From Gammaproteobacteria bacterium (GTDB lineage: Bacteria; Pseudomonadota; Gammaproteobacteria; Burkholderiales; Burkholderiaceae_C), in NCBI GenBank assembly GCA_025359085.1, contig JANYHL010000081.1, forward strand, positions 1 through 34,890: a DNA stretch of 34,890 nt. Reading direction: 5' to 3'. The notes below the pieces were generated by a model. That model worked only from the letters and a program-made list of their open reading frames with translations, had not been told where the DNA came from and made no database searches. Numbering within the stretch: the stretch's first letter is position 1; the number at the start of each line of letters is the position of its first letter. A program made the position numbers and the translations under genes. Shown in pieces: positions 7,818 through 23,617 of this stretch.

Positions 7818-8285
7818 ATGACCGACCAACAAGACCCCGTCTTTCAAATTCAGCGCGTGTACCTCAAGGAAGCGTCGCTGGAACAACCCAATTCACCGGC
7901 CATTCTGCTGGAGCAGGAGTCGCCCACGGTTGACATCCAGCTCGGCATCAACGCCGGGCCCGTGGCAGAGGGTGTGTTCGAGGTCACCGTCACCGCCACC
8001 GTGCAGACCAAGATCAAGGACAAGACCGTGTTTCTGGTGGAAGCCACGCAAGCCGGTATTTTCGAGATCCGCAATTTGCCACCGGAGCAGATGAACCAGA
8101 TCATGGGCATCGCCTGTCCGCAAATCGTTTATCCCTATCTGCGCGGCAACGTGGCGGACCTGATCCAGCGCGGTGGCTTTCCGCCCGTGCATTTGTCGGA
8201 AATCAACTTTCAGGCCATGTTCGAACAGCAGCAACAGCAACAAGCTGCCGCCGCTGCCGCTGCGCCCCAGGACGTGATTCAGTAA
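7818..8285 (+). CDS. secB: Protein-export chaperone SecB
   Basis: A 155-residue SecB. The family text [10 protein letters not shown] (9-19), [14 protein letters not shown] and the [13 protein letters not shown] segment are all present. SecB is a homotetramer that holds unfolded precursor proteins and passes them to SecA at the Sec translocon. The ribosome site AAGGAA lies six bases before the ATG. The C-terminus is a Gln/Ala-rich tail (EQQQQQQ then Ala-rich). Its TAA stop directly abuts dispersed repeat copy R2, which fills the gap to gpsA. Confidence 0.97.
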
Positions 8286-8289
8286 AAAT

Positions 8290-8350
8290 ATTGAGTATTT
8301 TTAGCCTCTAGCCCGCGTATTCATTGGATAAGTAGCTATGAAAATAATAG
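8290..8350 (-). repeat. Dispersed short repeat, copy R2 (reverse), supplying the gpsA start
   Basis: Read on the minus strand, box 1 ATAGCT (8339-8334) is followed by 19 bases and box 2 GGGCTAGAGGC (8314-8304), with A/T flanks. The ATG of gpsA (8338-8340) overlaps box 1, and the A/T flank encodes the residues after it (MKIIV). Confidence 0.75.
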
Positions 8351-9408
8351 TGCTTGGCGCCGGTGCCTGGGGCACGGCGTTGGCGCTCAGTGCGTGCAGC
8401 ACGCGGGCCGCCCGGCACACGGTCACGCTCTGGGCACGCGATGCGGCCCAAGCCGCGGTCATGCAGGCGCGCCGGGAAAACGTGCGCTACTTGCCGGGCA
8501 TCATCTTGCCCGCGACTTTAGGGATCAGCGCCGCCTGCTTGCCCGACGCCGGTGCTGCACCGGGCGCACTCAATTTAGCTGCGCCAGCGTCGTTTGGCGC
8601 GCTGATTGACAGCGCTGATCTGGTCGTCCTGGCCACGCCGATGGCGGGTTTGCGCGCCATGCTGGTGCACTTGGCAGCCTGTCGCGTGCCCGTGACCTGG
8701 CTCTGCAAGGGCTTTGAGGCGGCCCAATCTTCAGAGGCTTTTGGGCTGCTGGCCCACGAGGTACAAGCGCAAGTAGCTCCTGATTTAATAGCTGGTGGCC
8801 TGAGCGGCCCGAGCTTTGCGCTGGAAGTGGCGCGGAGCCAGCCCACGGCGCTGGTTGCCGCCAGTGCGCACGCCGCGGTGCGCGACGCCCTGGTGGCGGC
8901 GTTTCACAGCCCGACACTGCGGGTGTATGCCAATGACGACATCGTGGGGGTGGAAGTGGGTGGGGCGGTGAAGAACGTGCTGGCGATTGCGGTGGGTCTG
9001 TGCGACGGTCTGAGTCTGGGTTTGAATGCCCGCGCCGCCCTGATTACCCGTGGCCTGGCCGAGATGACACGTCTGGGCCTGGCATTGGGCGCACAGGCCG
9101 AAACCTTCATGGGCCTGACCGGCTTGGGCGATCTGGTACTGACGGCCACCGGCGATCTGTCGCGCAACCGGCAGGTCGGTCTGGCGCTGGCGCAAGGCCA
9201 GACCTTGGCGCAAGCGGTGGCTTCGCTCGGTCATGTGGCCGAAGGGGTTTACAGCGCGCGCACCGTGGTGCAGCGCGCAAACCATTTGGGTGTGGAGATG
9301 CCGATTGCGCAGGCGGTGCTGGCGTTGCTGGAGGGTCAGATGAAGCCGGCACAGGCGGTCGCCGCCCTGATGGGGCGTGATCCGGCCCGTGAACAACTTC
9401 AAGGCTGA
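8338..9408 (+). CDS. gpsA: Glycerol-3-phosphate dehydrogenase [NAD(P)+]
   Basis: A 356-residue protein that reduces dihydroxyacetone phosphate to glycerol 3-phosphate for phospholipid synthesis. The N-terminal nucleotide-binding motif is [10 protein letters not shown] (7-16). The catalytic-lysine region is [13 protein letters not shown], and the substrate segment is TGLGDLVLT. The start codon lies inside repeat copy R2. A second repeat copy (R3) lies in frame in the middle of the gene. A probable insertion, rich in Ala and Pro, lies around residues 63-85 compared with the E. coli protein. It is convergent with cphA, 9 bases apart. Confidence 0.95.
8744..8795 (-). repeat. Dispersed short repeat, copy R3 (reverse), in frame inside gpsA
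   Basis: AGCTCC (8775-8780) stands in the place of box 1 (reverse AGCTAT) and is followed by TGATTTAATAGC, as in copies R4 and R5. Nineteen bases upstream is a degenerate box 2, GCTGCTGGCCC (8745-8755), matching copy R2 at 8 of 11 positions. The segment is translated as part of GpsA ([15 protein letters not shown]) and uses A/T-rich codons unlike its surroundings. It is the weakest of the seven copies. Confidence 0.5.
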
Positions 9409-9417
9409 TCGCGCCGG

Positions 9418-11994
9418 TCAAGGCTGGTCTTTTTTGATGCGCGCGGTAATGTGGGCCAGCGCTTGCTCGACCTGATCCACCAGAATCAGGCACAGATCGC
9501 CTTGGTGCAAGGTGTCCATCGCGCTGTCGATGGCGAGAAACTCCCCTTGAATCTCCGTGATGCTCTGGGTGCGCGTGGCCTGGGCCAGGCCCGCCCGCAG
9601 CAGTGCCAGCACCTCGCCATCGGCGCGCCCGCGCTGACACTGGTCCTGGTACAGCACCACCTTGTCAAACACGTTGCCCAAAATTTCAGTCTGCTGGCGG
9701 ATATCTTCATCACGGCGGTCGCCGGCGCCGCTGATCACGACCGTGCGACGTTTGGCCGGCATGCTTTCCAGCGCTTGCACCAGCGCTGCGATGGCGTCTG
9801 GGTTGTGGCCATAGTCGGCAATGAGCGTGGCGCCCCGGTAGCTGAACAGATTGAAGCGCCCCAGCGCGTTGTCGTTGTCATTGATAAAACGCGACAAGCC
9901 CAGCGTGATCGTGTCCCAGGTGACCCCCAGCGCCCACACCGCCGCCACTGCCGCCATGACGTTTTCAACCTGGAACCCAACCGTGCCCCGATGGGTAATG
10001 GGGATGTCTGACAGCGCTATCTGGTGCCGCACCTTGCCCTCGGCCGCCACCAAGCACTCGCCTTCGACGTAGACGGCGCGCCGCCCCTGCGCCAGGTGCG
10101 TGGCCATGACCGGCTGCTGCCGGTCCATGGCAAAAAAAGTCACTGAGCCGCGGCAGTGCCTGGCCATGGACACCACAAAGGGGTCGGCTGCGTTGAGCAC
10201 GGCCACGCCGTTATCGGCAATGTTTTGCACGATCACGCGCTTGAGCACGGCCAGATCTTCGACCGTTGTGATGTAGTTCAGGCCCAGGTGGTCGCCGCTG
10301 CCGACATTGGTCACCACCGCCACATTGCAACGGTCAAAGGCCAGCCCTTCGCGCAGCATGCCGCCGCGGGCGGTTTCCAGCACGGCGGCGTCCACGTCCG
10401 GGTGCTGCAGCACGTTGCGCGCACTTTTGGGGCCGCTGCAGTCACCGGTGTCGATGCGTTGACCGGCGATGTAAACACCATCGGTAGTGGTCATGCCCAC
10501 GCGCAAACCGCTCTGGGTCAGCAGGTGGGAAATCAGGCGCACCGTAGTGGTTTTGCCATTGGTGCCGGTGACCGCCACCAACGGGATGCGACCATTTTCA
10601 TGCTCGCCAAACATACTGGCGATGATGGCCTCGCCCACCGGGCGCCCTTTGCCGTAAGACGGTGACAGGTGCATGCGCAGACCGGGCGCGGCATTGACCT
10701 CGACCACGCCGCCGCCCTGTTCTTCGAGCGGATGCAGGATGCTGTTGCAGACGACGTCGACACCGCAAATATCGAGTCCGACCATCTGCGCCGCCGCCAC
10801 GGCACGCGCTGCCACTTCGGGGTGGACGCTGTCGGTGACGTCGGTGGCGGAACCGCCCGTGGACAGATTGGCGTTGTGCCGCAGCGGGACGCGTTGGCCC
10901 TTGGCGGGCACCGAGTCGGCCTGCAGGCCCTGCGCTGCCAGGCACGCCAAGGCAATATCGTCAAATCGGATCTTGGTTTGCGAGGTTGCGTGGCCCGACC
11001 CGCGGCGCGGGTCCTGGTTGACCCGCTCCACCAACTCCTGAATGGTGCGCTGGCCATCCCCCACGACGTTGGGCGGATCGCGATGCGCTGCGGCCACCAG
11101 CTTGTTGCCAACCACCAGCAGGCGAAAGTCGTTACCGGCCAGAAAACGTTCGACCAGAATGCCATCGCCGAATTCGGCGGCTGCCTTGTAAGCCGCCAGC
11201 AGCTGTTCGCGCGAGGTGATGTTGACCGTCACCCCCTTGCCCTGGTTGCCATTTTTGGGCTTGAGCACCACCGGCAGGCCGATGACACAGGCGGCGCTCC
11301 AGGCATCGTCCGGTGTCCTTACCTCGCGGCCCTTGGGGACGGGCACACCGGCGGCGGCCAGCATTTTTTTGGTCAGCTGTTTGTTCTGGGCGATCGCCTC
11401 CGCAATGGCGCTGGTGATGTCCATTTCAGCGGCCTGGATGCGACGCTGCTTGCTGCCCCAGCCGAACATGACCATGCTGCCAGTCGTCATGCGCCGGTAG
11501 GGAATGTTGCGCGCGAGCGCTGCCTGGACGATGGCGCCCGTGCTGGGCCCCAGGCGGACATCCTCGTCGAGCTCGCGCAGGCGCTGCAGCGCCTGCTGCA
11601 GGTCAAACGGGAGGTCGTTCTGCGCTGCCAGGCACAAGGCTTGCGCCAGTTCCAGGGCCAGTCGGCCCACGGCCTCTTCTGAATACTCCACCACCATCTG
11701 GTAGACGCCGGGCTCCACGGTGGCCGTGGTGCGGCCGAAGGTGACCGGACAGCCAGCCAGGGCCTGCAAATCCAGCGTTGCCACTTCAAGCACATGGGCC
11801 ATCGGCACCGTGACATTGTGCCCGGTGGGCTGCAAGGTGCTGAGCTCAGGACAGCGCGCCCGCAGACGGTTCTCAAAACCGTCATTACTGCCGATGGCGC
11901 ACTCGGCTGGCGTACAGGTTACCACCGCCTCCATGGCGGTATGACTGCTCCAGAGATTGGGGCCGCGCAGGGCGCGGATGCGTGAGACGTCCAT
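9418..11994 (-). CDS. cphA: Cyanophycin synthetase
   Basis: An 858-residue protein that polymerises aspartate and arginine into cyanophycin, a nitrogen-storage granule, using ATP. Domains in order: an N-terminal domain; an ATP-grasp domain (KPKNGNQGKGV at 245-255, ending in VVEVNAAPGLRMH); and a Mur-ligase-like domain with an intact Walker A loop GTNGKTTT (477-484) and a C-terminal ligase domain (DYGHNPDA). The ATG at 11994 follows the cphA' stop by four bases, with GAAGAA as ribosome site; an upstream start would overlap cphA'. The pair is probably one transcript. No cyanophycinase gene is visible in the window. Confidence 0.95.
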   Translation of the reverse strand: MDVSRIRALRGPNLWSSHTAMEAVVTCTPAECAIGSNDGFENRLRARCPELSTLQPTGHNVTVPMAHVLEVATLDLQALAGCPVTFGRTTATVEPGVYQMVVEYSEEAVGRLALELAQALCLAAQNDLPFDLQQALQRLRELDEDVRLGPSTGAIVQAALARNIPYRRMTTGSMVMFGWGSKQRRIQAAEMDITSAIAEAIAQNKQLTKKMLAAAGVPVPKGREVRTPDDAWSAACVIGLPVVLKPKNGNQGKGVTVNITSREQLLAAYKAAAEFGDGILVERFLAGNDFRLLVVGNKLVAAAHRDPPNVVGDGQRTIQELVERVNQDPRRGSGHATSQTKIRFDDIALACLAAQGLQADSVPAKGQRVPLRHNANLSTGGSATDVTDSVHPEVAARAVAAAQMVGLDICGVDVVCNSILHPLEEQGGGVVEVNAAPGLRMHLSPSYGKGRPVGEAIIASMFGEHENGRIPLVAVTGTNGKTTTVRLISHLLTQSGLRVGMTTTDGVYIAGQRIDTGDCSGPKSARNVLQHPDVDAAVLETARGGMLREGLAFDRCNVAVVTNVGSGDHLGLNYITTVEDLAVLKRVIVQNIADNGVAVLNAADPFVVSMARHCRGSVTFFAMDRQQPVMATHLAQGRRAVYVEGECLVAAEGKVRHQIALSDIPITHRGTVGFQVENVMAAVAAVWALGVTWDTITLGLSRFINDNDNALGRFNLFSYRGATLIADYGHNPDAIAALVQALESMPAKRRTVVISGAGDRRDEDIRQQTEILGNVFDKVVLYQDQCQRGRADGEVLALLRAGLAQATRTQSITEIQGEFLAIDSAMDTLHQGDLCLILVDQVEQALAHITARIKKDQP

Positions 11995-11998
11995 AAAA

Positions 11999-14167
11999 TC
12001 AATATTTCTTCTTTGGGTCAGATTCAAAGGCGCGCAGGCCTGCTGCGATCAGTTCGGGGGCGACGCCCGCGGCCCAGGCCGCCGCCATGGCCGCCATCAC
12101 CATCTCCGGTTTTTCAGACTTGGCCCGCTTCATGGTGGCCATCGACACCAAGGCCACTTCTTCCATGCCTTGGGCCATAACAATCTGCCCGTTTTGTACA
12201 AAGAGTACACGCTTGCCGGCGGCCCGATGCGCGCGGATGGCATCGAGCTGGGGATCGAGTCCGTAAAAAATAACTTCCCCATCACACAAGGGCGCCATTT
12301 CCACCACACGCGGGTCGGCTGCGTTGAGCACGGCCACACCTTGCGGCAGGATCACATCGACCTGAGTGCGCAGCACGTTGTAAAGCTTGTCCAGGTCATC
12401 AATGTAGAACTCGGCCAAGGCCTCAAAGCCACTGACATCGGTGACCACCCCGACCGAGCATTTGTCATAGGCCAGCCCCTCGCTCAGGATCATGCGGCTG
12501 TCGTTCTCAAAAACGGCCACGTCCACCGCGCGGTTGATCAGCAGGCGCTGCGCGCCGTCCCAGTGGCTGCTGTCATCGGCCTCCACCTGGCGCGCACCGA
12601 GGTAAAAACCATCACGGCAGGCCAGTCCGACCTTGTTGCCATTGATATGGAGCAGCCAGGCGATCAAGCGCGCAATGCGCGTGGTGTTTTGGCTGCCGGC
12701 GACGCCAACCACCGGAATGCGGCCGTTCTTGTCGCTGCCAAACAGGTGCTCGATGATGGCCTGGCCGACCGGGCGTGGCAGCCCGCTCGCGGGCTTCAGA
12801 TGGGACAGCAAGCCGGGGCTGGCATTGACCTCAATCACAGCGCCCCGCTGCTCGGCCAAGGGGCGGGAGACGTCTTCCAGCACCAGGTCGACCCCCGCCA
12901 CATCGAGCCCCACCACCCGTGCCGCCAGGGTCGCCGCCGCCGCCACGCTTGGGTGGACCTGGTCGGTGACATCGACGGCAACGTTGCCATTGCGTTGAAT
13001 CAAGACTTTTTCACCGGAGGCCGGCACCGAGTACGCCGTGAAGCCCTGACGCTCCAGCTCAAGAATGATTTCTGCGCCGTCCTGCGGCGCCAGCGCGTTG
13101 AGCGGATCGTCTTCGCCGGTGCCGCGCCGGGGGTCGGAGTTGATTTGGCGGTCGACCAGTTCAATGATGTTGGCGTGGCCGTCGCCCGTGACCCAGGCGG
13201 TTTCGCCCCGCGCCGCCGCCACCACGCGCTTGCCCACCACGAGCAGACGATGCTCGTTGCCGGCAATATATTGCTCAACGATCACGCTGCCGTCGCCCTT
13301 GCGTTGCGCGAGCAAAAAGGCCGCCTCGATGTCTTTTTTGTTGTTCAGGTCCAGTGATACACCGCGCCCATGGTTGCCGTCATAGGGTTTGAGCGCGACG
13401 GGCAGCCCGATGTCCTGCGCGGCCTCCCACGCCTCTTCGACGCTGTTGACCACCTGGCCTTGCGGTACCGGCACGCCACAGGATTGCAGCAAGGATTTGG
13501 TTAAGTCCTTGTCACTGGCAATTTCTTCGGCAATGGCACTGGTCTGGTCGGTCTCGGCGGTCCAGATGCGACGCTGGCCCGCGCCATGGCCGAGTTGCAC
13601 CAGATTGCCCTCGGTCAGGCGAAGGTGGGGGATGCCGCGCGCCGTGGCCGCCTCGACGATGTGCGCGGTGCTGGGGCCCAGGCACAGTGAATCAACCAGC
13701 TCGTGCAGCCGGGCCACGGCCGCCGCCTGGTCGTAGGGTTGATCGTCGATCGCGGCCATGACGAGATCGCGGCCGGTGACCAGCGCGGCACGACCGACCT
13801 GTTCTTGCCGCGTCCGGAAAGCCATTTTGTACACACCGCGCACCGGCGTCTGCCGGGTCTTGCCGAAACCGGTGCGCATGCCGGCCAGATTCTGGAGCTC
13901 GAGCACCACATGTTCCAGAATATGAGCGACCCAGGTGCCCTCGCGCAAGCGCTCCAAAAATCCGCCCGGCGCACCGATGCCGCAGCGATGCAGCGCGAGT
14001 CCGGGCAGCAGGGCGGTCAAACGCTCATAAAATCCGGGAATAGTGTTGGAGGGAAAATCTTCCAGTGCGCCGATATCGACCCAGGCTTCGATTACCGGAC
14101 GGTAGGTCCAGATATTGGGGCCGCGCAAATGAGTCACCCGCAGGAGTTGAATGTTCTTCGTTGTCAT
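11999..14167 (-). CDS. Second cyanophycin synthetase-like protein (CphA'), C-terminally short
   Basis: A 722-residue homologue of the adjacent CphA. The N-terminal and ATP-grasp parts are well kept (KPYDGNHGRGV at 260-270, VIEVNASPGLLSH). In the Mur-ligase part the Walker A loop is lost: where CphA has GTNGKTTT this protein has GSQNTTRI (491-498), so the lysine is replaced by Thr and the glycine before it by Asn. The protein stops before the C-terminal ligase domain, about 135 residues short of CphA. It probably keeps one ATP-dependent step or acts as a partner of CphA. Pairs called cphA' and cphA are known outside cyanobacteria. It is first in the operon and divergent from the ABC gene across 135 bp. 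Confidence 0.88.
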   Translation of the reverse strand: MTTKNIQLLRVTHLRGPNIWTYRPVIEAWVDIGALEDFPSNTIPGFYERLTALLPGLALHRCGIGAPGGFLERLREGTWVAHILEHVVLELQNLAGMRTGFGKTRQTPVRGVYKMAFRTRQEQVGRAALVTGRDLVMAAIDDQPYDQAAAVARLHELVDSLCLGPSTAHIVEAATARGIPHLRLTEGNLVQLGHGAGQRRIWTAETDQTSAIAEEIASDKDLTKSLLQSCGVPVPQGQVVNSVEEAWEAAQDIGLPVALKPYDGNHGRGVSLDLNNKKDIEAAFLLAQRKGDGSVIVEQYIAGNEHRLLVVGKRVVAAARGETAWVTGDGHANIIELVDRQINSDPRRGTGEDDPLNALAPQDGAEIILELERQGFTAYSVPASGEKVLIQRNGNVAVDVTDQVHPSVAAAATLAARVVGLDVAGVDLVLEDVSRPLAEQRGAVIEVNASPGLLSHLKPASGLPRPVGQAIIEHLFGSDKNGRIPVVGVAGSQNTTRIARLIAWLLHINGNKVGLACRDGFYLGARQVEADDSSHWDGAQRLLINRAVDVAVFENDSRMILSEGLAYDKCSVGVVTDVSGFEALAEFYIDDLDKLYNVLRTQVDVILPQGVAVLNAADPRVVEMAPLCDGEVIFYGLDPQLDAIRAHRAAGKRVLFVQNGQIVMAQGMEEVALVSMATMKRAKSEKPEMVMAAMAAAWAAGVAPELIAAGLRAFESDPKKKY

Positions 14168-14302
14168 GAATCTAAATACTTTGGGTCACCCCGTAGTCGG
14201 CCTCAATCTTGATGTGGTCTAGTCTATTGCAATTCGCAACGGGAACCGACCCGTCCTGGTGTCATCACCCCGCTCGTTAACCTGCAGAATTTTCTGACCC
14301 CC
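14168..14302. promoter_or_regulatory. Divergent control region between cphA' and the ABC exporter gene
   Basis: These 135 bp must hold promoters for both cyanophycin-locus transcripts. A small dyad TTGC-AATTC-GCAA lies at 14227-14239, near the middle. I could not place a convincing -35/-10 pair or a known operator, and neither gene has a strong ribosome site. Confidence 0.4.
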
Positions 14303-16603
14303 ATGACCAACCCCATCCCCGCCGCTGAACCCTGGCTGCACGAGCTCTCAATTGATTGGCGGGCACAGGTCCAAACGCAGCTCCAGACAGGTGAGAACGT
14401 TTTAGCCCTGCTGCAGGTGGACCTGGACAACAAACTTTGTTTTGTTCAAGGATTGGTGCTCGTCACCAACCAGCGCCTGCTGAGTCGCGCGCCAGATGCC
14501 ACCTGGCAGACCTGGCCTTACCGGCCCGGGCTGACCCTCAGACACCATGACCATGCCGGGGTGGGCCATCTGGCGCTGGATGACGCCCAAGGACGGCTCG
14601 CCGCCTGGTGTTTCACGCTGGGGCACAACCTGCAGGCGATCCGTTTGCTGGACCAATTTCAGATTCATGCCCAGAGTGCCGTGACCGGGCTGCCCCCGGC
14701 GCTACCCGAAGGGCGCCGTTGCCCCAGCTGCAAAGCGCCGCTGGCGCCGGATCAGGACGAATGCCCGATCTGCACCAAAGTCATCCACACGCCACCGTCA
14801 ACGCGCACGCTGTTTCGGCTCTGGCGCTTTGCCAAACCGTACCGCGGCCAGCTGTTCGCCGGTTTTGTGCTGACCCTGCTGGGCACGGCGGCCAGTCTGG
14901 TACCGCCTTACCTGGCCATGCCATTGATGGACGAGGTGCTGATTCCGTTTCAAAACGGGCAACACATCGACCCCCTGCTGGTGGCGGTTTACCTGTCGGG
15001 CCTGTTTGGCTCGGCGCTGCTGGCCTGGGGGCTGTCCTGGGCCAAGACCTACATCCTGGCGCTGGTGTCCGAGCGCATCGGCGCCGACCTGCGCACTGCC
15101 ACCTACGAGCACCTGCTGCGCATGTCGCTGGAGTACTTTGGCGGCAAACGCACGGGCGACCTGATGTCGCGCATCGGCAGCGAGAGCGACCGCATCTGCG
15201 TGTTCCTGTCGCTGCACCTGCTCGACTTTGCGAGCGACATCCTGATGCTGATCATGACGGCGTTCATTCTGATCTCCATCAACCCCTGGCTGGCGCTGGT
15301 CACGCTGGTGCCGCTGCCGTTCATCGTCTGGATGATCCGATCGGTGCGTTTTCGGCTGCAAACCGGCTTCGAGAAGATCGACCGGGTCTGGTCCGAAGTC
15401 ACCAGTGTGCTGGCCGACACCATTCCCGGTGTGCGCGTGGTCAAAGCGTTTGCCCAGGAGCAGCGCGAGGCGGCGCGTTTCAGAGAGGCCAACAAGCACA
15501 ATCTGGCCGTCAACGACCGCATCAACAAGATCTGGTCGCTGTTCTCGCCCAGCGTCTCCCTGCTGACCGAGCTGGGGCTGCTGGTGGTGTGGGCGTTTGG
15601 CATCTGGCTGGTGGCCAAGGGCGAGATCACGGTCGGCGTGTTGATGGCCTTCATCGCCTACATCAGCCGTTTCTATGGCCGACTCGACTCCATGAGCCGC
15701 ATTGTCTCGGTGACCGAAAAATCAGCCTCGGCGGCCAAGCGCATTTTTGACATCCTGGATCACGTTTCCAGCGTGCCCGAGCCGACCCAACCGGTGAAAC
15801 TGGAGCGCCTGCAAGGCCGCATCGAGTTGCGCGACGTCAGTTTTCGCTACGGCAACCGCGAAGTCAACCGCGCCGTCAATTTAACGATTGAACCCGGCGA
15901 GATGATTGGCCTGGTAGGCCACAGCGGCTCCGGAAAAAGCACGTTGGTGAACCTGATCTGCCGTTTTTACGATGTCTCGGAAGGCTCGATCCGGGTCGAT
16001 GGGGTCGATGTCCGCTCCTTCCCCATTGCCGACTACCGGCGCAACATCGGGCTGGTGCTGCAGGAGCCGTTCCTGTTCTTCGGCACCATCGCCGACAACA
16101 TTGCCTATGGCAAACCGCACGCCAGTCAGGCCGAGATCATTGCCGCAGCGCGTGCCGCACACGCGCACGAGTTCATCCTGCGTCTGGCGCAAGGCTATGA
16201 CTCGATGGTGGGCGAGCGCGGCCAGGGCTTGTCGGGGGGCGAGCGCCAGCGCATCTCGATTGCGCGCGCCCTGCTGATCGACCCGCGTATCCTGATCATG
16301 GACGAGGCCACTTCCTCGGTCGACTCCGAGACCGAGAAAGAAATCCAGAAGGCGCTGGAGAATCTGGTGCAGGGGCGCACCACCATCGCCATTGCCCACC
16401 GCCTGTCCACCCTGCACCGCGCCGACCGGCTGGTGGTGCTGGACCGGGGTGAAATCGTGGAAGTGGGCACGCACGACGACCTGATGGCGCGCGAAGGGGC
16501 TTATTTCAACCTGTACCAGGCGCAGGCGCGCAACATGGACGTGGACATGGACGACGATAGAAGACGCAATGTCAGGGTCGATAACGTGAAAGACGACAAA
16601 TGA
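14303..16603 (+). CDS. Cyanophycin-associated ABC transporter, exporter type, with extra N-terminal domain and zinc ribbon
   Basis: A 766-residue fused membrane/ATPase ABC protein. Residues 1-130 form an extra domain; VLVTNQRLLSR resembles the strand motif of bacterial PH-like domains (inference). A zinc ribbon follows: CPSC (140, 143), ten residues, CPIC (154, 157). The transmembrane domain spans about residues 175-460, then a complete nucleotide-binding domain: [36 protein letters not shown] and AIAHRLS. The layout is that of half-size exporters that work as homodimers. It is divergent from cphA' and overlaps the DUF1854 gene by ATGA. I recall this type being named for its link to cyanophycin genes; the substrate is unknown. 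Confidence 0.85.
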   Translation: MTNPIPAAEPWLHELSIDWRAQVQTQLQTGENVLALLQVDLDNKLCFVQGLVLVTNQRLLSRAPDATWQTWPYRPGLTLRHHDHAGVGHLALDDAQGRLAAWCFTLGHNLQAIRLLDQFQIHAQSAVTGLPPALPEGRRCPSCKAPLAPDQDECPICTKVIHTPPSTRTLFRLWRFAKPYRGQLFAGFVLTLLGTAASLVPPYLAMPLMDEVLIPFQNGQHIDPLLVAVYLSGLFGSALLAWGLSWAKTYILALVSERIGADLRTATYEHLLRMSLEYFGGKRTGDLMSRIGSESDRICVFLSLHLLDFASDILMLIMTAFILISINPWLALVTLVPLPFIVWMIRSVRFRLQTGFEKIDRVWSEVTSVLADTIPGVRVVKAFAQEQREAARFREANKHNLAVNDRINKIWSLFSPSVSLLTELGLLVVWAFGIWLVAKGEITVGVLMAFIAYISRFYGRLDSMSRIVSVTEKSASAAKRIFDILDHVSSVPEPTQPVKLERLQGRIELRDVSFRYGNREVNRAVNLTIEPGEMIGLVGHSGSGKSTLVNLICRFYDVSEGSIRVDGVDVRSFPIADYRRNIGLVLQEPFLFFGTIADNIAYGKPHASQAEIIAAARAAHAHEFILRLAQGYDSMVGERGQGLSGGERQRISIARALLIDPRILIMDEATSSVDSETEKEIQKALENLVQGRTTIAIAHRLSTLHRADRLVVLDRGEIVEVGTHDDLMAREGAYFNLYQAQARNMDVDMDDDRRRNVRVDNVKDDK

Positions 16604-17088
16604 ACGCGACCACTGCCATGGTGACAAGCCATTTTCAGCTGACCCGCAATCCGTTCGGACTGCTTGTTCTGACGACCGCCGCGAGTGAGGTGTTTGAGGG
16701 CGTGGTGCCGGTGCGGGCGTTCCCGATCCAGTCGCCCGAGGACGGCATAGCGCTGGTGCACACCGATGGCCATGAAGCAGCCTGGATCGATCATCTGGCC
16801 GCGCTGGCGCAACCGGCGCAAAGTCTGATCCGCGAAGAGCTGGCAATGCGTGAATTCATGCCCGAAATTTTGAACATTGACAGTGTCACCAGCTTTTCCA
16901 CGCCGTGCACCTGGCAGGTCCGGACCGACCGCGGCGACACCCGTTTTGTGTTGCGCGGCGACGAGGACATCCGCCGCGTCGGCCCCACCATTTTGCTGGT
17001 CACCGACTCGCACGGCATCCAGTTTTTGATCCGTGACCGCGCGAACCTGAACAAGGACAGTCAAAAGATTCTGGACCGTTTTTTATAA
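16600..17088 (+). CDS. DUF1854 protein associated with the cyanophycin ABC transporter
   Basis: A 162-residue cytoplasmic protein with no membrane segment or signal. The texts FQLTRNPFGLLVLTT and EFMPEILNIDSVTS belong, as I recall, to the DUF1854 family, found with cyanophycin genes and with this ABC protein. Its ATG overlaps the ABC stop (ATGA), so translation is coupled and a joint function is likely. No catalytic residues can be assigned. An alternative ATG at 16618 would shorten it by six residues. The TAA stop abuts dispersed repeat copy R4. Confidence 0.8.
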   Translation: MNATTAMVTSHFQLTRNPFGLLVLTTAASEVFEGVVPVRAFPIQSPEDGIALVHTDGHEAAWIDHLAALAQPAQSLIREELAMREFMPEILNIDSVTSFSTPCTWQVRTDRGDTRFVLRGDEDIRRVGPTILLVTDSHGIQFLIRDRANLNKDSQKILDRFL

Positions 17089-17202: not shown

Positions 17203-18093
17203 ATGCCCTCTGCCCTGACCCCTTATTTTGATTTTTCTGACGCGGCCGTGGCCGAATTGGCCGGTGTCGATGCGGCTCGCGCGTTGCAGGAAGATGTGGG
17301 TGCTGACGATTTGACCGCCGGTCTGATTGACGCCAGTCGCCGGACGCGGGCGCACATCCTGGTGCGTGAGGCGGCCGTGTTGTGTGGCGTGCCATGGGCG
17401 CAAGCCGCGCTGCAGCAACTTGACCCGACCGTGCGTCTTGATTGGCAGGTGCAGGAGGGCCAGCCCTGCGTCGCCGACCAGGTGGTGCTGGAAATTGAAG
17501 GCTCGGCCCGTGCGCTGCTCACGGCTGAGCGGACCGCGCTCAATTTTTTGCAGTTGCTGAGCGCAGTGGCGAGTAAAACGGCTGACTATGTGGCCGCCGT
17601 GCAGAGCGTGCCGGGTAGCCGGGCGCAGATTGTGGACACGCGCAAGACGCTGCCGGGCTTGCGGCTGGCGCAGAAGTATGCGGTGCGAGTCGGCGGCGGC
17701 AGCAACCACCGGCTCGGTCTGTATGACGCTGTGTTGATCAAGGAAAACCACATTGCCGCGGCCGGCGGTGTGGCGGCGGTGCTGCGCCGCGCTGCTGAGC
17801 TGGCGCCAGCGGCCAAGTTTGTGGAGATCGAAGTGGAAAACCTGGCGCAGCTGCGCGAGGCGCTGGCCGCCGGTGCCAGCCTGGTGCTGCTCGACAACAT
17901 GGGCCTGGCGCAGCTGCAAGAGGCGGTGCAGCTCAACGCCGGGCGGGCCAAGCTGGAGGTCTCGGGCGGCGTGAACCTGTCCACGGTACGTGCCATTGCC
18001 GCCACCGGGGTCGACCGCATCTCGATCGGCGCCTTGACCAAAGATGTCAAGGCGATTGATTTTTCAATGCGTTTTGCCGCTAGCCCGCTCTGA
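17203..18093 (+). CDS. nadC: Nicotinate-nucleotide diphosphorylase (quinolinate phosphoribosyltransferase)
   Basis: A 296-residue protein that converts quinolinate and PRPP to nicotinate mononucleotide in de novo NAD synthesis. Family text is clear: LTAERTALNFLQ, DTRKTLPGLRLAQKYAVRVGG, NHRLGLYDAVLIKENH, LEVSGGVNL and ISIGALTKD. The family usually ends shortly after a segment like DFSMRF. Here five more codons (AASPL) and the TGA come from repeat copy R5. nadA, the preceding enzyme of the pathway, follows after 42 bp. The ribosome site is weak. Confidence 0.96.
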   Translation: MPSALTPYFDFSDAAVAELAGVDAARALQEDVGADDLTAGLIDASRRTRAHILVREAAVLCGVPWAQAALQQLDPTVRLDWQVQEGQPCVADQVVLEIEGSARALLTAERTALNFLQLLSAVASKTADYVAAVQSVPGSRAQIVDTRKTLPGLRLAQKYAVRVGGGSNHRLGLYDAVLIKENHIAAAGGVAAVLRRAAELAPAAKFVEIEVENLAQLREALAAGASLVLLDNMGLAQLQEAVQLNAGRAKLEVSGGVNLSTVRAIAATGVDRISIGALTKDVKAIDFSMRFAASPL

Positions 18094-18121
18094 GTCTGCG
18101 TAGTGCGCTATTGATTTTGAT
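18072..18121 (-). repeat. Dispersed short repeat, copy R5 (reverse), encoding the end of nadC
   Basis: Box 2 (reverse) GCCGCTAGCCC (18076-18086), 19 bases, box 1 variant CGCTAT (18106-18111), then TGATTTTGATA. The nadC stop (18091-18093) lies within the 19-base spacer, and the nadA ribosome site CAGGAG begins a few bases after the repeat. Confidence 0.75.
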
Positions 18122-18135
18122 AAACAGGAGTTGCC

Positions 18136-19272
18136 ATGACGAACGCCACGGACACGGTCAAAGAAGTTGACTACGAACAGCCCAAGCGTGAAGCCGCAGC
18201 CGGTGCCGCGGTGTGTGCCACCAAACACGCCTGGGCACGGGTGCCGCTTGAACCCGGTCCGGCCGAGCGCGCTGCCCTGAAAGACAAGATCCGCCGCCTC
18301 TTGAGAGAAAAAAACGCGGTCATGGTGTCGCATTACTACGTGCACCCGGACCTGCAAGACCTGGCCGAAGAAACCGGTGGCCTGGTCAGCGATTCACTGG
18401 AAATGGCCCGCTTTGCCCGCGACCACACGGCGCAGACGCTGGTGGTGTCGGGCGTGCGCTTCATGGGTGAGACGGCCAAAATCCTGTCGCCCGAAAAGCG
18501 GGTCCTGATGCCCGACCTGGACGCCACCTGTTCGCTCGACCTCGGTTGCCCGGTGGATGAATTCAGCGCCTTTTGCGACGAGCATCCGGAGCGCACGGTG
18601 GTGGTCTATGCCAATACCAGCGCGGCCGTCAAGGCGCGCGCCGACTGGCTGGTCACATCGAGCTGCGCGCTGGAGATTGTGAGCGCGCTCAAAGACAAGG
18701 GCCACAAAATCCTGTGGGCGCCCGACCGCCATCTGGGCGGCTACATCCAGCGCGAAACCGGCGCCGACATGCTGATGTGGGGTGGCTCCTGCATCGTGCA
18801 TGACGAGTTCAAGGCGTTTGAGCTGCAAGCCCTGATGAAGGAACACCCGGGGGCCCGCGTGTTGGTGCACCCGGAGTCCCCGGCGGACGTGGTGGCGCTG
18901 GCCGACGCGGTCGGTTCGACCTCGGCCATTTTGAAAGCCGCGCAGCAGATGGACGCCCAGGAATTCATTGTGGCCACCGACAACGGCATGATGCACAAGC
19001 TGCGCACCCTGAACCCGGGCAAAGTGTTCCTGGAAGCCCCGACCGCTGGCAACAGTGCCACCTGCAAAAGCTGCGCCCATTGCCCCTGGATGGCGATGAA
19101 CAACCTGGCCGATGTCGCCCGCGTGCTGGCAACCGGCGCCAACGAGGTGCACGTCGACCCGGCGTTGGGACTGCGAGCCCGTGTTCCGATTGACCGGATG
19201 CTGGCCTTTACCGCGGCGCTCAAAGGCGGGCGCGATGCCGGGAGTCTGGTGCCGCTGATCGGGGCGGCGTAG
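18136..19272 (+). CDS. nadA: Quinolinate synthase
   Basis: A 378-residue NadA that condenses iminoaspartate with dihydroxyacetone phosphate to quinolinate, using a [4Fe-4S] cluster. The cluster cysteines are recognisable: Cys132 ([15 protein letters not shown]), Cys219 ([10 protein letters not shown]), and the CKSCAHCPW segment with Cys310, 313 and 316, the last expected to be the ligand. The start at 18136 has a good ribosome site (CAGGAG). The roughly 45 N-terminal residues before the conserved core are longer than in E. coli but usual for Burkholderiales, as I recall. It forms a two-gene unit with nadC; nadB is not in the window. Confidence 0.96.
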
Positions 19273-19320: not shown

Positions 19321-20034
19321 TCAGATCGCTGAATGCAGGTAATTGACCATGGTGATGAAATCGAATACCGGCAGGCCTGACTGACGTCGAATCGCTGCCG
19401 AATAGGGTGGCAGATCCGTGCATTCAAGAACAAAGGCCCGAATGCGAGGATGCTCATCGAGCGCTCGCAGCGCCGTGCCCAAAACTTCCTGCTCAATGAC
19501 CTCCAGATCGATCTCGGCCTCGGGTTCGGCGAACATCCTGTTCCACTGCGCACAATGTTCTAGACCCACAATGTGCAAGCCAGCCGTGCTTGCGATGCCA
19601 ACCGACGTCAGGTGCTCCAGCCCGAGAGCCCCGGCGTTGGCCGTGATGATGCAGATATCGCCTTCTGGGCCGCAGATCTGCCGTGCAAACGGCACTTGCA
19701 GGAGACTCGAGGTAAATACCGGCACGCCGACGGCGCCGGCCAGTTCTCGCTGGAAGATGGCATTGAATCCACAGCTCGTGGTTATGGCCCGGACACCCTG
19801 CGAGACCATCGTCCTGGCATCGGAAATCATCGTACGCAAAACGTTTTGATCCGGATTCTCAAGAATCGTATGGACATTGGCACCCCACACTGGATGGAAC
19901 CTGACCGAGTATTCATACGAGGCAGGATTGGTGCTGTTGCCAGGCAAGGCTTCAAGTTGCTGCAGGCCCTTGGGGACCTGGCCCTTTTCCCAGCACAAAA
20001 CCCCGATCTTTGCCGATCCGCTTTCGTTTACCAT
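19321..20034 (-). CDS. Aspartate/glutamate/hydantoin racemase-family protein
   Basis: A 237-residue protein of the cofactor-independent Asp/Glu racemase superfamily. The two catalytic cysteines stand in the expected settings: Cys88 in ITTSCGFNAIF and Cys205 in LECTDLPPYS. Members racemise aspartate, glutamate or hydantoins, or decarboxylate malonates, and the substrate cannot be read from sequence. It is the last gene of the minus-strand amino-acid cluster, 42 bp after the FAD enzyme, which suggests it converts the imported amino acid to the isomer that enzyme oxidises. It converges on nadA with no T-rich terminator between. Confidence 0.75.
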   Translation of the reverse strand: MVNESGSAKIGVLCWEKGQVPKGLQQLEALPGNSTNPASYEYSVRFHPVWGANVHTILENPDQNVLRTMISDARTMVSQGVRAITTSCGFNAIFQRELAGAVGVPVFTSSLLQVPFARQICGPEGDICIITANAGALGLEHLTSVGIASTAGLHIVGLEHCAQWNRMFAEPEAEIDLEVIEQEVLGTALRALDEHPRIRAFVLECTDLPPYSAAIRRQSGLPVFDFITMVNYLHSAI

Positions 20035-20076
20035 AAGTCACTCCGGTCGTTGCGTCTGTTTTCCATTTTTGGCAAC

Positions 20077-21354
20077 TCAGAATCTTGCGATTCGATAGGG
20101 TGACAGGTCAAATGGATCGGGATGACCACGGACCAAACCGGCAATCAATTGAGCGGTGATCGCGGCCAAGGTGAGTCCCAGATGTCCGTGACCAAAAGCG
20201 TAGTACACGTTCTTGCAGCTTGGCGAGCGCCCAATCACCGGCAAGGAATCCGGCGTGGATGGGCGATAGCCCATCCATTCACGTTGAATCGCCTGTTCGG
20301 CAAGACCCGGTAGCACGCTGCGGGCAAAGGGCGCTAGCGCGCGTATGCGTCGGTAGTCTGGCGGCGCGGTCAGTCCCGCCAGTTCATCGCCGCTCACCAG
20401 AGAAATGCCGTCATGCATCGGTGACAGGACACAATGTTTTTCAGGAAAACCGACCGGGCGACGAAGCAACTCATCTTCCGTCGAACCAAACGAAATATGG
20501 TAGCCACGCTCGGTGTCGAGGCTGACGCTGTCACCGATTTGTTTTGCAAATTTCTTTGACCAGGCGCCCGCAGCAATAACCACAGAATCAAATTTCCGTG
20601 TGGTCTTATCCGTTTTGATCGTGATGCCACCCCCCTCCATGGGGCGGACCTCCAGGACGCTCTCTTGAATGTATTGGGCCTGACGTTGCCGCGCGCCCTC
20701 AAAGTAGGCTTGGGTCAAACCCGTGGGGTAGTTGACGAAGCCACTGTCGGGCTGGAATAAGCCCCGTGTGTAGGCATTCTTGTTGAGCTTGGGTTCAAGA
20801 TCAGCAACCTCATCCGCATTGAGGATGGAAAAATTGACGCCATGTCGCGTCATCAATTCGCGCTCAAGTGCAGTTTCTGAAAATCCGGCATCTGACCCGT
20901 AAACTTTCAGCCAACCCACTGGCCGGATGAGATCAAGGCTGGCGCTCGCAGCGGCCAATGCAAGATGCGCTTTCATGGCATGGGAGACGAGCGGGTCAAG
21001 CGCCCTGGCAATATCCGCCACCCGTGCCGGGCGACCTGCTTCAATAAAACGAAGAAGCCAGGGAAGTACCTGGAAAAAGTACGACGGACGCAGAACGGCG
21101 GCGCCGTCCGGATCAAAAATATACGAGGGAATAGATCGAAGAACACCGGGTGTGGCGGTTGGCGTCACGGCCCCCGTGACGATGCCCCCGGCGTTGCCTG
21201 AGCTTGTTCCGGCACCTACTTCACCGTGATCAATGACAGTGACCAAGCAGCCCTCAGCGGCGAGAGCCAAGGCTGTCGCCGCACCAACGACGCCAGCCCC
21301 GATGACGGCAATCGAACGTTCGCTCTCTGTCCCCGTGTTACCGATGTGACTCAT
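20077..21354 (-). CDS. FAD-dependent D-amino-acid dehydrogenase-like oxidoreductase (DadA type)
   Basis: A 425-residue DAO-family flavoprotein. The N-terminal FAD motif is GAGVVG (19-24), followed by IDHGEVGAGTSSGNAG, which resembles DadA, and the C-terminal FAD-contact segment is GHGHLGLTLAA. The family oxidises D-amino acids to imino acids, passing electrons to the membrane. The start at 21354 has AAAGG seven bases upstream; an in-frame start further upstream would add 12 residues without support. It sits between the transporter ATPase and the racemase. The RidA-like protein at the head of the cluster could hydrolyse the imine products. Substrate is not established. Confidence 0.82.
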   Translation of the reverse strand: MSHIGNTGTESERSIAVIGAGVVGAATALALAAEGCLVTVIDHGEVGAGTSSGNAGGIVTGAVTPTATPGVLRSIPSYIFDPDGAAVLRPSYFFQVLPWLLRFIEAGRPARVADIARALDPLVSHAMKAHLALAAASASLDLIRPVGWLKVYGSDAGFSETALERELMTRHGVNFSILNADEVADLEPKLNKNAYTRGLFQPDSGFVNYPTGLTQAYFEGARQRQAQYIQESVLEVRPMEGGGITIKTDKTTRKFDSVVIAAGAWSKKFAKQIGDSVSLDTERGYHISFGSTEDELLRRPVGFPEKHCVLSPMHDGISLVSGDELAGLTAPPDYRRIRALAPFARSVLPGLAEQAIQREWMGYRPSTPDSLPVIGRSPSCKNVYYAFGHGHLGLTLAAITAQLIAGLVRGHPDPFDLSPYRIARF

Positions 21355-21402
21355 CAAATACCTTTCTGAAGTTCTTGCAATTTTCTGCAACGCCGGTGAT
21401 AC

Positions 21403-22128
21403 CTAATGTTGAAGAATTTTCCCCAGGAATTCACGCGTTCGCTCATTCTTGGGTGCGGTAAAGAAGGCCTCAGGCTCGGCAACTTCAACGATCACGCCCT
21501 TGTCGATGAACGCGACGCGATCGGCAACCTTGCGGGCAAAGCCCATTTCATGCGTGACCACAATCATCGTCATGCCGTCTTTGGCCAAGGACACCATCAC
21601 GTCCAGAACCTCGTTGATCATTTCGGGATCCAGGGCAGAGGTTGGCTCATCAAAAAGCATGACTTTGGGTTGCATGCACAGGCTGCGGGCGATGGCGACC
21701 CGTTGTTGTTGCCCCCCCGACAACTGCTGTGGGTAGGCATCGAATTTGTCTCCCAGACCGACCTTTTCCAAAATCTCCCGCCCCCGGCTGATGGCTTCTT
21801 TCCTGGGAAGCTTTCGCACATGAATCGGCGCAAGCGTTACATTTTCAAGTGCCGTCTTGTGGGGATACAGATTGAATTGCTGGAAGACAAAGCCCAATTC
21901 CATCCGAAGCTGCCTCAAATTGGCTTCATTGGCGACGGGCAGGTCATCGACGATCAAAGTGCCACTTTGAAATTTCTCCAGGCCATTGACACATCGGATC
22001 AATGTGCTTTTTCCCGAGCCGCTAGGCCCGCAAACCACCACCACCTCGCCTTTGGCAACCTCAAGATTGATGTTTTGCAGAACGTGATGGGTGCCGTACC
22101 ATTTGTTGAGCTCGTTGAATTTAATCAT
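21403..22128 (-). CDS. Amino-acid ABC transporter ATP-binding protein (GlnQ/ArtP type)
   Basis: A 241-residue ATPase with Walker [11 protein letters not shown]-loop FQQFNLYPH, signature [15 protein letters not shown], Walker [13 protein letters not shown] and switch VTHEMGFA. The [13 protein letters not shown] wording is that of the polar-amino-acid uptake family. It powers the two permeases encoded just upstream in the same direction. The substrate is an amino acid, but not a definable one. Confidence 0.93.
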
Positions 22129-22205
22129 GCTGGATATTCCTCGTCTTCGTCGCTATCGCTATCGCCATGGCAGGGCCTGATGTGTTTTGAAGGGCTGTGG
22201 ACAGC

Positions 22206-22856
22206 TCACGTCTTTTCCATTCGCCGAGACAAATGAAGCAGCGGATAGCAGATCAGGAAATAGCCGATGCCCACAACGGAAAAAACCAGCAGTCCATTGG
22301 GAACACTTTGCACGATGATCCAGCCAGAGCGTGTCAGATCGAGAAGCCCGATGGCTGAGACAACCGAAGAATCTTTGACCAATAAAACGAATTGCCCGAC
22401 CAGAGACGGGACAATCATTCTCGTGGCTTGCGGCATCACGATCAACCTGAGCTGTTGCCAGCGGGTGAGGCCGGCGGAGGCGGCCGCTTCGACCTGGCCC
22501 AGGGCTACAGCCCTGATCCCGGATGCCACGATTTCAGAGATGAAGCATGCCGCTATATTGGACAGCGCCAAGGCGCCCGCAGTGAATGAGTCAAGCTCGA
22601 TGCCCGCTTCAGGCAGTATAAAAAAGACGACAAAGACCTGAACCAGCACAGGCGTGCCGCGAAAGATATCGGTGTAGGCGCCGACGACAAATGACAGCAG
22701 CTTGTTTGAACTGGCGCGGCCTATGCCCAGTACGAAGCCGACAATCGTTCCCGCAACAATGCCGATAGCCGACAGGGCAAGGGTCACGCCAATGCCCTTC
22801 AAAAGGACCGGATAGTATTGGGCGATACCCTGTATTTGCTCCAAGAACATAGTCAT
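22206..22856 (-). CDS. Amino-acid ABC transporter permease (HisM/GlnP family), second
   Basis: A 216-residue inner-membrane permease with about five membrane segments. The start of the family domain is LLKGIGVTLALSAIG, and the cytoplasmic EAA loop ASAGLTRWQQLRLIVMPQA contacts the ATPase. FRGTPVLVQVFVVFF is typical of polar-amino-acid permeases. It lies 10 bases after the other permease and probably forms a heterodimer with it. An alternative start two codons in (MFLEQ) is possible. Confidence 0.92.
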   Translation of the reverse strand: MTMFLEQIQGIAQYYPVLLKGIGVTLALSAIGIVAGTIVGFVLGIGRASSNKLLSFVVGAYTDIFRGTPVLVQVFVVFFILPEAGIELDSFTAGALALSNIAACFISEIVASGIRAVALGQVEAAASAGLTRWQQLRLIVMPQATRMIVPSLVGQFVLLVKDSSVVSAIGLLDLTRSGWIIVQSVPNGLLVFSVVGIGYFLICYPLLHLSRRMEKT

Positions 22857-22866
22857 GTCATGGTCC

Positions 22867-23535
22867 TCAGTGGTGCGCAGAGGGATGATTGATGCGCATC
22901 CATGCGGCTGCCATCAACTTCAATCCAAAATAGATGATCAAGTAGCCCACAGCGGTTGTGACCAAACCTTCAACCGGCATGAATCGGTCATTGGCCAAGG
23001 TTTGGCCGGCACGTGTGAGTTCCAATACTGAGATGAGTGAAAGCAAGGACGAGTCCTTGACCAACACAATCGCCTGACCGATCAGCGGCGACACCATGGG
23101 GCGCAGCGCTTGCGGAAGAATGATGAGGCGCATTTGCTGCCAATAGTTCATGCCCGAACTGGCGCTCGCTTCAACTTGCCCACGAGGAATCGACATTATT
23201 CCGGAGCGGATGATTTCGCTGACATAGGCGCCACTGTTGACGGAAAGCGCAATGATGCCGATCATGGTTTCCGGCATGAGCACGCCGAAATTCGGCAAGC
23301 CGAAATATAAAAAATAGAGCTGGGCCAGCAAGGGTGTGGCCCGTATCACATCCACATAGGCGACCGCTGGCGCCCTGACAAAACGGGATGGCTGGATACT
23401 CATCGCACAAGCAATGATGCCAATGACGATGGCACCAGCAAACGCAGTCAATGAAATCGTCAAAGTGGAGACGAAGCCCAGCCAAAATTCCGGAAGGGTT
23501 TCTCCTATCACCCGAAGGTTCAGATTCAATAGCAT
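22867..23535 (-). CDS. Amino-acid ABC transporter permease (HisM/GlnP family), first
   Basis: A 222-residue permease with the same layout as its neighbour: a hydrophobic N-terminal segment, VIRATPLLAQLYFLYFGLP, and the EAA loop ASSGMNYWQQMRLIILPQA. It pairs with the downstream permease as the membrane pore of the uptake system. An 82-bp gap with a strong stem-loop separates it from the binding-protein gene upstream. Confidence 0.92.
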   Translation of the reverse strand: MLLNLNLRVIGETLPEFWLGFVSTLTISLTAFAGAIVIGIIACAMSIQPSRFVRAPAVAYVDVIRATPLLAQLYFLYFGLPNFGVLMPETMIGIIALSVNSGAYVSEIIRSGIMSIPRGQVEASASSGMNYWQQMRLIILPQALRPMVSPLIGQAIVLVKDSSLLSLISVLELTRAGQTLANDRFMPVEGLVTTAVGYLIIYFGLKLMAAAWMRINHPSAHH

Positions 23536-23569
23536 GCGACAGCCAATGATTGAAGAAAATGAGGTTTAA

Positions 23570-23599
23570 GAATCGGCGCTTTGATCACTGCGCCGATTC
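23570..23599 (-). other. Stem-loop between the binding-protein and permease genes
   Basis: GAATCGGCGC (23570-23579) and GCGCCGATTC (23590-23599) form a perfect 10-bp stem with a 10-base loop. In mRNA sense it is followed only by TTAAACC, so it is not a strong terminator. Its place fits structures that protect the 3' end of binding-protein mRNA and lower permease expression. Confidence 0.75.
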
Positions 23600-23617
23600 C
23601 AAGCTCAGAGCAGACGC

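Follow-up and report, generated by a model that had tools for sequence, protein, structure and literature searches.

The window analysed here is a stretch of 34,890 bp of DNA (contig JANYHL010000081.1 of assembly GCA_025359085.1, positions 1 to 34,890) from a gammaproteobacterium of the Burkholderiaceae_C, with Rhodoferax genomes as the closest named relatives. It carries a locus of four genes in two divergent pairs: cphA and cphA′, which encode two cyanophycin synthetases, on the minus strand, and the genes for an ATP-binding cassette (ABC) exporter and a DUF1854 protein on the plus strand. Cyanophycin, a nitrogen-rich polymer, is regarded as a store of nitrogen that a single self-sufficient enzyme can make. 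The features of the locus are as follows.

9418–11994, minus strand: cphA, full-length synthetase (NF010623 score, alignment to solved CphA1, site census)
11999–14167, minus strand: cphA′, truncated synthetase paralogue (NF010623 score, alignment to solved CphA1, site census)
13910–13984, minus strand: Cx19HxxEH motif of the CphA′ N domain (C62, H82, E85 and H86 of CphA′, from the translation)
14168–14302, no strand: divergent spacer of 135 bp between cphA′ and the ABC gene
14303–16603, plus strand: ABC exporter gene, with an ABCB/MsbA-type transmembrane domain (TMD) and a nucleotide-binding domain (NBD), family NF052233 (profile match, ATPase motifs)
14399–14686, plus strand: predicted PH-like domain at the N terminus of the ABC protein, residues about 33–128 (AlphaFold2 model and Foldseek)
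14720–14773, plus strand: zinc ribbon CPxC-x10-CPxC of the ABC protein, residues 140–157 (conserved Cys)
16600–17088, plus strand: DUF1854 gene, family NF052234 (profile match; predicted soluble beta-rich domain)

The open reading frame (ORF) of cphA spans 9418–12027 on the minus strand; its true start is most likely the ATG at 11994, because the family match begins there. The divergent arrangement around the 135-bp spacer, described in an earlier note on this DNA, was confirmed, as was the ATGA at 16600–16603, in which the stop codon of the ABC gene overlaps the start of the DUF1854 gene. CphA scored 1241.8 bits against NF010623 (cut-off 877) and passed the TIGR02068 equivalog cut-off of 850 with 988.6 bits; CphA′ passed NF010623 (1032.7 bits) and fell below the equivalog cut-off of TIGR02068 (711.7 bits). 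The ABC protein scored 1405.5 bits (cut-off 880) against NF052233, “cyanophycin metabolism-associated ABC transporter”, and the DUF1854 protein 221.6 bits (cut-off 150) against NF052234 and 164.6 bits (cut-off 26.8) against PF08909. Both partner families were named in NCBIfam after the cyanophycin link, as the earlier note had stated, and by association only. Of the 115 loci fetched, 86 (81 distinct ones) carry all four genes together; among the 29 without the full gene set, 24 reach a contig end and five were taken as cphA controls.

The distribution of the genes was determined in two samples. In a phylum sample of 299 Pseudomonadota genomes each family was searched in the same set, with cphA identified by NF010623 at E ≤ 1e-120; an order sample of 200 genomes was searched for DUF1854, cphA and cyanophycinase. 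DUF1854 (NF052234) was present in 16 of the 299 genomes, and the ABC family exceeded its cut-off in exactly those 16 (Fisher p = 8e-27). Twenty genomes carried cphA, namely all 16 carriers of the ABC and DUF1854 genes and four others. cphA′ and cphA are adjacent in 15 of the 16 carriers; the sixteenth (G242) has one cphA, which runs off its contig (L066). In the order sample DUF1854 was found in 68 genomes and cphA in 76. All 68 DUF1854 genomes carry cphA, and 67 of them have at least two cphA matches; in the lone exception (G360) the second synthetase begins at the contig edge (L178). In the first ABC search a loose E-value matched 60 of 60 relatives, and only the count over the cut-off (17 of 60) is informative. 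The partners do not, then, occur mostly in genomes without cphA, and the association drawn by the earlier note is real; it has to be narrowed, however, as the ABC and DUF1854 genes follow the cphA′/cphA pair and not cphA in general.

In four genomes (G363, G438, G467 and G502) each pair is intact, but cphA′-cphA is separated from ABC-DUF1854 on the contig by about 7.6 kb, 13 kb, 0.8 Mb and 2.3 Mb, respectively, and in G434 (L210) and G388 (L181) all four genes are on one strand. Because the modules separate in the former four, their co-occurrence is not owed to gene order alone. The DUF1854 domain itself is wider than cyanophycin, since the control genome of Sulfolobus acidocaldarius gave a match to the DUF1854 profile and none to cphA. 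In Pfam, DUF1854 is described as a C-terminal domain of ABC proteins. A search for DUF1854 on plasmids gave no match.

The window contains no cyanophycinase, as noted earlier, and none was matched even in the whole genome (97% complete), either by TIGR02069 at E ≤ 1e-20 or by Peptidase_S51 at E ≤ 0.001. The four genomes of the phylum sample that have cphA but lack the ABC and DUF1854 genes (G142, G145, G324 and G349) each have one cphA with a cyanophycinase match at most 300 bp away, whereas among the 16 carriers only G350 has a cyanophycinase over the cut-off, one copy of which sits in a separate second synthetase cluster (L071). Among the order-sample genomes, a cyanophycinase over the cut-off was found in 4 of the 68 with DUF1854 (G056, G350, G393 and G425; a match in G435 is below the cut-off) versus 6 of the 8 other cphA genomes (Fisher p = 2e-5), and in 3 of the 124 genomes without cphA. 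The two order-sample cphA genomes with neither DUF1854 nor cyanophycinase, both counted as DUF1854-negative in the Fisher test, are doubtful: G444 has an ABC gene at the contig edge (L203), and the synthetase of G457 is only 34% identical (L204).

In CphA1, the N domain carries a zinc protease site, Cx19HxxEH, which cuts chains to give primers (PMC9262961). The G domain adds Asp, using His267 and Arg309 and the Asp-site residues Arg323, Asn394, Ser396 and Arg458, and the M domain, which has Lys499 in its P-loop and a lid at the C terminus, adds Arg (PMC9427784, TeCphA1). We scored these sites by alignment position, with the window proteins and solved CphA1 as anchors and residues numbered as in SuCphA1. 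A first set comprised 79 CphA and 87 CphA′ rows and a second set 29 and 30, with no sequence common to both.

The sites were found to be divided between the two paralogues. CphA′ retains C59, H79, E82 and H83 in all 117 rows (87 and 30), as well as H57, F67, R70, E87 and Y110 in all 87 rows of the first set. The full Cx19HxxEH motif is present in none of the 107 CphA rows holding the N domain (0/78 and 0/29); all 79 CphA rows of the first set have gaps at positions 67 and 70, and the window CphA lacks the motif Cys, the second His and the loop of the site. Conversely, N394, S396, R323 and R458 are retained in CphA wherever a row includes the G domain (78 of 78 in the first set, 29 of 29 in the second), whereas in CphA′ S396 is lost in 117 of 117, R323 is replaced by Gly in 116 and by Ser in one, and R458 by Leu in 114 and by Met, Glu and Ile in one each. 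The ATP ligands K220, K261, D431 and E450 are kept in all CphA′. The Arg-adding motifs of the M domain are intact in the window CphA, while the M domain of the window CphA′ has lost the P-loop Lys (GSQNTT) and the lid, and it is eroded in most other CphA′. Nine single cyanophycinase-type CphA (L067–L070, L199, L200, L202, L205 and L206) have all tested sites intact, except for a P-loop Thr to Ser change in L070.

Phylogenetic analysis of the N and G columns of 71 sequences with IQ-TREE placed CphA′ in one clade (ultrafast bootstrap 100) and the cluster CphA in another, weakly supported one (75), and both were joined with L066 (99). From this joining we conclude that one old duplication gave rise to the two. 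L066 lies in a genome outside the class, adjoins ABC and DUF1854 genes and has the protease site, the Asp pocket and the M motifs on a single chain; it might resemble the state before the split, though its contig may end short of a second copy. Median pairwise dN/dS was calculated for twelve close loci, using pairs with dS of 0.1–1.5 (38 to 65 pairs per domain). The values for CphA′ were 0.123 (N), 0.112 (G) and 0.215 (M), and those for CphA 0.194 (N), 0.115 (G) and 0.141 and 0.109 (M). Constraint is weaker on the N domain in CphA and on the M domain in CphA′, and neither protein looks like a pseudogene product.

The core of the ABC protein is MsbA/TAP-like, with an ABC TMD found by profile matches, and the Walker A Lys, the signature LSGGE, the Walker B Asp-Glu and the H-loop His are present in 91 of 91 homologues. 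It is thus alike to MsbA/TAP-type ABCB exporters in its TMD-NBD core and ATPase motifs, but adds an unusual N-terminal part of 165 residues, which consists of a seven-stranded domain capped by a long helix, followed by a zinc ribbon. In the AlphaFold2 model residues 31–130 have block pLDDT values of 86–95, and Foldseek matched the domain to bacterial PH domains with probability 1.00, but with E-values of only 0.007 (3dcx) and 0.01 (3hsa), the best being 0.004; a PH-like domain is therefore predicted. The four Cys of the ribbon are invariant in a 52-row alignment and kept in 89 of 91 ABC rows.

The model of the DUF1854 protein (pLDDT 82.5, pTM 0.53) is beta-rich, with helices of just 10–12 residues, and predicts a soluble protein. 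By this model DUF1854 is not a membrane protein, which corrects the “membrane partner pair” of the earlier note. The sequence FVLRGDEDIRR is invariant in 49 of 49 DUF1854 rows. A relative of known structure was sought and none was accepted, the best sequence match having an E-value of 0.14 and the best Foldseek match, not credible, an E-value of 0.005 with a TM-score of about 0.2. The term DUF1854 was not found in the open-access literature searched, in keeping with the earlier statement that the role of the partners is not known.

From the gene set, its co-occurrence, the near-exclusion of cyanophycinase, the partition of active sites and the intact ATPase motifs, all of which are read directly from the sequences, we propose that the four genes may form one system of two modules. 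The first would be a split cyanophycin synthase. In it CphA would build the chain, adding Asp by its G domain and Arg by its M domain, and would be unable to make its own primers. CphA′ would be a dedicated cutter, whose N-domain zinc protease site would cleave cyanophycin internally and which would pass the short chains to CphA as primers in trans. Such a division of labour between cutter and builder is, taken alone, probable from the distribution of sites. Primer making in trans is suggested by the published chemistry of related enzymes: SuCphA1 with its G domain, M domain or both inactivated rendered the primer-dependent TmCphA1 primer-independent in trans (PMC9262961). With a single-chain enzyme the balance of both activities cannot be set by expression (PMC9262961), whereas with separate proteins the cell could adjust how much cutting goes on relative to building.

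The second module would be an ATP-driven exporter, in which the ABC protein would take the chains, or oligomers released by CphA′, across the inner membrane. Its cytosolic PH domain and its zinc ribbon would serve for docking, and DUF1854, to judge from gene content, would be a coupled soluble partner. Export is the simplest role, because an intact ABCB-type exporter accompanies a polymer synthase and most of the genomes concerned have no enzyme that would mobilise a store; on this argument from gene content we consider it possible, at a little under even chances. Our estimate for the whole explanation, a split synthase together with export by ABC and DUF1854, is similarly tentative and stops short of calling it probable. 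The earlier premise that cyanophycin is an intracellular granule may not hold here, given the genome in which no cyanophycinase was found and a review according to which cyanophycin went undetected when the Cupriavidus necator H16 homologues were overexpressed in that bacterium or produced in E. coli (PMC8560796). Herminiimonas arsenitoxidans is reported to have two synthetase copies and to lack cyanophycinase (PMC5670224). Neither report amounts to evidence of export. A further step, that the cyanophycin is secreted and not stored, with the cutter setting the chain length and the PH-domain ABC protein and its DUF1854 subunit exporting an extracellular or envelope polymer, is somewhat doubtful; no report of exported cyanophycin was found in the open-access literature searched.

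Several observations weigh against this proposal. Three CphA (L060, L064 and L190) retain HxxEH, without the Cys. Five of the 117 CphA′ (L062 and L172–L175) retain every tested M motif, and the death of the M domain was therefore rejected as the defining mark of CphA′; since these five keep the M motifs, the constant signature is the kept N site together with the lost Asp pocket. In the G domain of CphA, His267 is replaced by Gln in 105 of 107 cluster CphA (L181 and L182 have His), and the window CphA has Gln at this position in its P-loop, GNQGKG. As His267Ala was used to inactivate SuCphA1 (PMC9262961) and lowers TeCphA1 activity (PMC9427784), CphA may be slow or changed. A stronger form, in which the G domain of CphA is dead, with CphA′ adding Asp and CphA adding Arg, was considered and rejected, as the Asp pocket of CphA′ is lost and Gln267 is also found in the cyanophycinase-linked enzymes of L071. 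Because its ATP ligands are kept and it is strongly constrained, the G domain of CphA′ may have a role beyond that of a carrier for the N domain. The substrates of ABCB-type transporters are many. Cyanophycinase exceeds the cut-off in G056, G393 and G425 with no second synthetase cluster to explain it, unlike possibly in G350. Finally, the polymer could be a store after all if there is a depolymerase that escaped recognition; the window's own genome has an Asparaginase_2 gene, whose family includes the isoaspartyl dipeptidase IaaA, and this could finish such a pathway.

A first rival is an ordinary intracellular store in which the N domain of CphA′, as an endo-cyanophycinase site, replaces the missing cyanophycinase, while ABC-DUF1854 serves to anchor granules, to transport products of breakdown or to keep Asp and Arg in balance. 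Besides the Asparaginase_2 gene, it can call on the fact that CphA′ holds the only recognisable cyanophycin-cleaving site in the genome, and on the NCBIfam names, which refer to cyanophycin metabolism. The N-domain activity is slower than polymerisation and cuts internally, however, and granule chains are argued to escape it (PMC9262961), so that it would be a poor mobilising enzyme; the C. necator homologues, moreover, gave no cyanophycin (PMC8560796). We regard storage as unlikely. A second rival holds that the product is not cyanophycin. The altered G domains, with Gln267 in CphA and with the Asp pocket lost but the ATP site kept in CphA′, would make or cap some other isopeptide, which the ABC protein would export. 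The changes in CphA′ are indeed fixed and not random, with Gly at 323 in 116 of 117, Leu at 458 in 114 of 117 and all ATP ligands kept, its G-domain dN/dS is 0.112, and the C. necator result fits this as well (PMC8560796). Since CphA keeps its Asp-site residues and M motifs, however, the simplest prediction is a backbone of Asp that bears an amino acid as its side chain, and Gln267 also occurs beside the cyanophycinase of L071; a different product thus appears improbable. Passive hitch-hiking of the ABC and DUF1854 genes, linked to cphA by inherited gene order or by a mobile element such as the composite transposon proposed as a possibility for an activated sludge cluster in which insertion sequences flank two cphA and an ABC gene (PMC10687191), is highly improbable in view of the complete co-occurrence in both samples, which survives separation of the modules from 7.6 kb to megabases, the single old clade of CphA′, and the lack of any other gene common to all four-gene loci among the window ORFs tested.

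That comparison covered 18 other window ORFs, none of which was common to all 86 four-gene loci, in flanks that are limited and short on the cphA side; the best-shared flanking genes were gpsA (42), secB (40), nadC (23) and nadA (21). In the window the flanks are secB-gpsA (7818–9408) and nadC-nadA (17203–19272), and these are present at only some four-gene loci. Further out, on the minus strand at 19321–24418, lie an Asp/Glu racemase-like gene, a flavin adenine dinucleotide (FAD)-dependent (DAO) oxidoreductase gene and the genes of an ABC importer, among them one for a family 3 solute-binding protein; these genes are not conserved alongside the cyanophycin genes in the tested loci. A common regulatory element in the 135-bp spacer was considered and rejected, as the alignment of ten loci is weak (mean column identity 40%) and has no promoter-like match; region 14100–14400 of the window gave no sigma-70-like promoter and no consensus promoter or terminator match.

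Three side observations concern other synthetase loci. The L071 cluster (G350:C1:5337000-5352000) contains two CphA-like genes on opposite strands near the cyanophycinase, both with Gln267 and both without the full protease motif. Beside the cyanophycinase-type cphA of L068, L069, L199, L202, L205 and L206 is a second ORF, whose match to CphA is confined to the Mur ligase-like M part (30–38% identity), and an M-only ligase may be a member of such clusters. L113 (CALPVM020000145.1), labelled Akkermansia muciniphila, has a cluster 67–78% identical to that of the window and is probably mislabelled or a mixed bin.

In part the system is already known, both through the link named in NCBIfam and through the “Group 1” cphA cluster of activated sludge, which has two cphA and an ABC transporter gene and no cphB (PMC10687191) and is very likely the same system; the term DUF1854 is absent from that paper, and its account of Group 1 describes neither an active-site partition nor a genome-wide exclusion. 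No description of a site partition between synthetases or of an export role was found in the open-access literature searched. Canonical cphA-cphB storage clusters use the same synthetase family, whereas the present locus has two synthetases, an ABC protein and DUF1854, with no cyanophycinase. The primer-independent CphA1 (SuCphA1, PDB 7lg5/7lgj) belongs to the same three-domain family, and its features are shared out here, its Cx19HxxEH being found in CphA′ and its Asp pocket and M motifs in CphA; SuCphA1 has its three sites on one chain (PMC9262961), whereas here the putative cutter and builder are separate paralogues. The in-trans pair of SuCphA1 and TmCphA1 likewise has a synthetase active at its N site only rescuing a primer-dependent one (PMC9262961), but as a laboratory mix, whereas here the arrangement has apparently been fixed by evolution via other changes.

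With DUF1854 in 68 of the 76 cphA genomes of the order sample, this is a common class of synthetase genes. If it is indeed split, exporter-linked and without cyanophycinase, annotating such genomes as cyanophycin-storing may be wrong, and failed detection of cyanophycin would have a possible reason, in that the wrong compartment was examined or one paralogue was tested without its partner or exporter. A natural pair of cutter and builder would also offer a way to tune chain length, and four gene deletions would allow a direct test of what two families, which owe their names to association alone, do in the cell.

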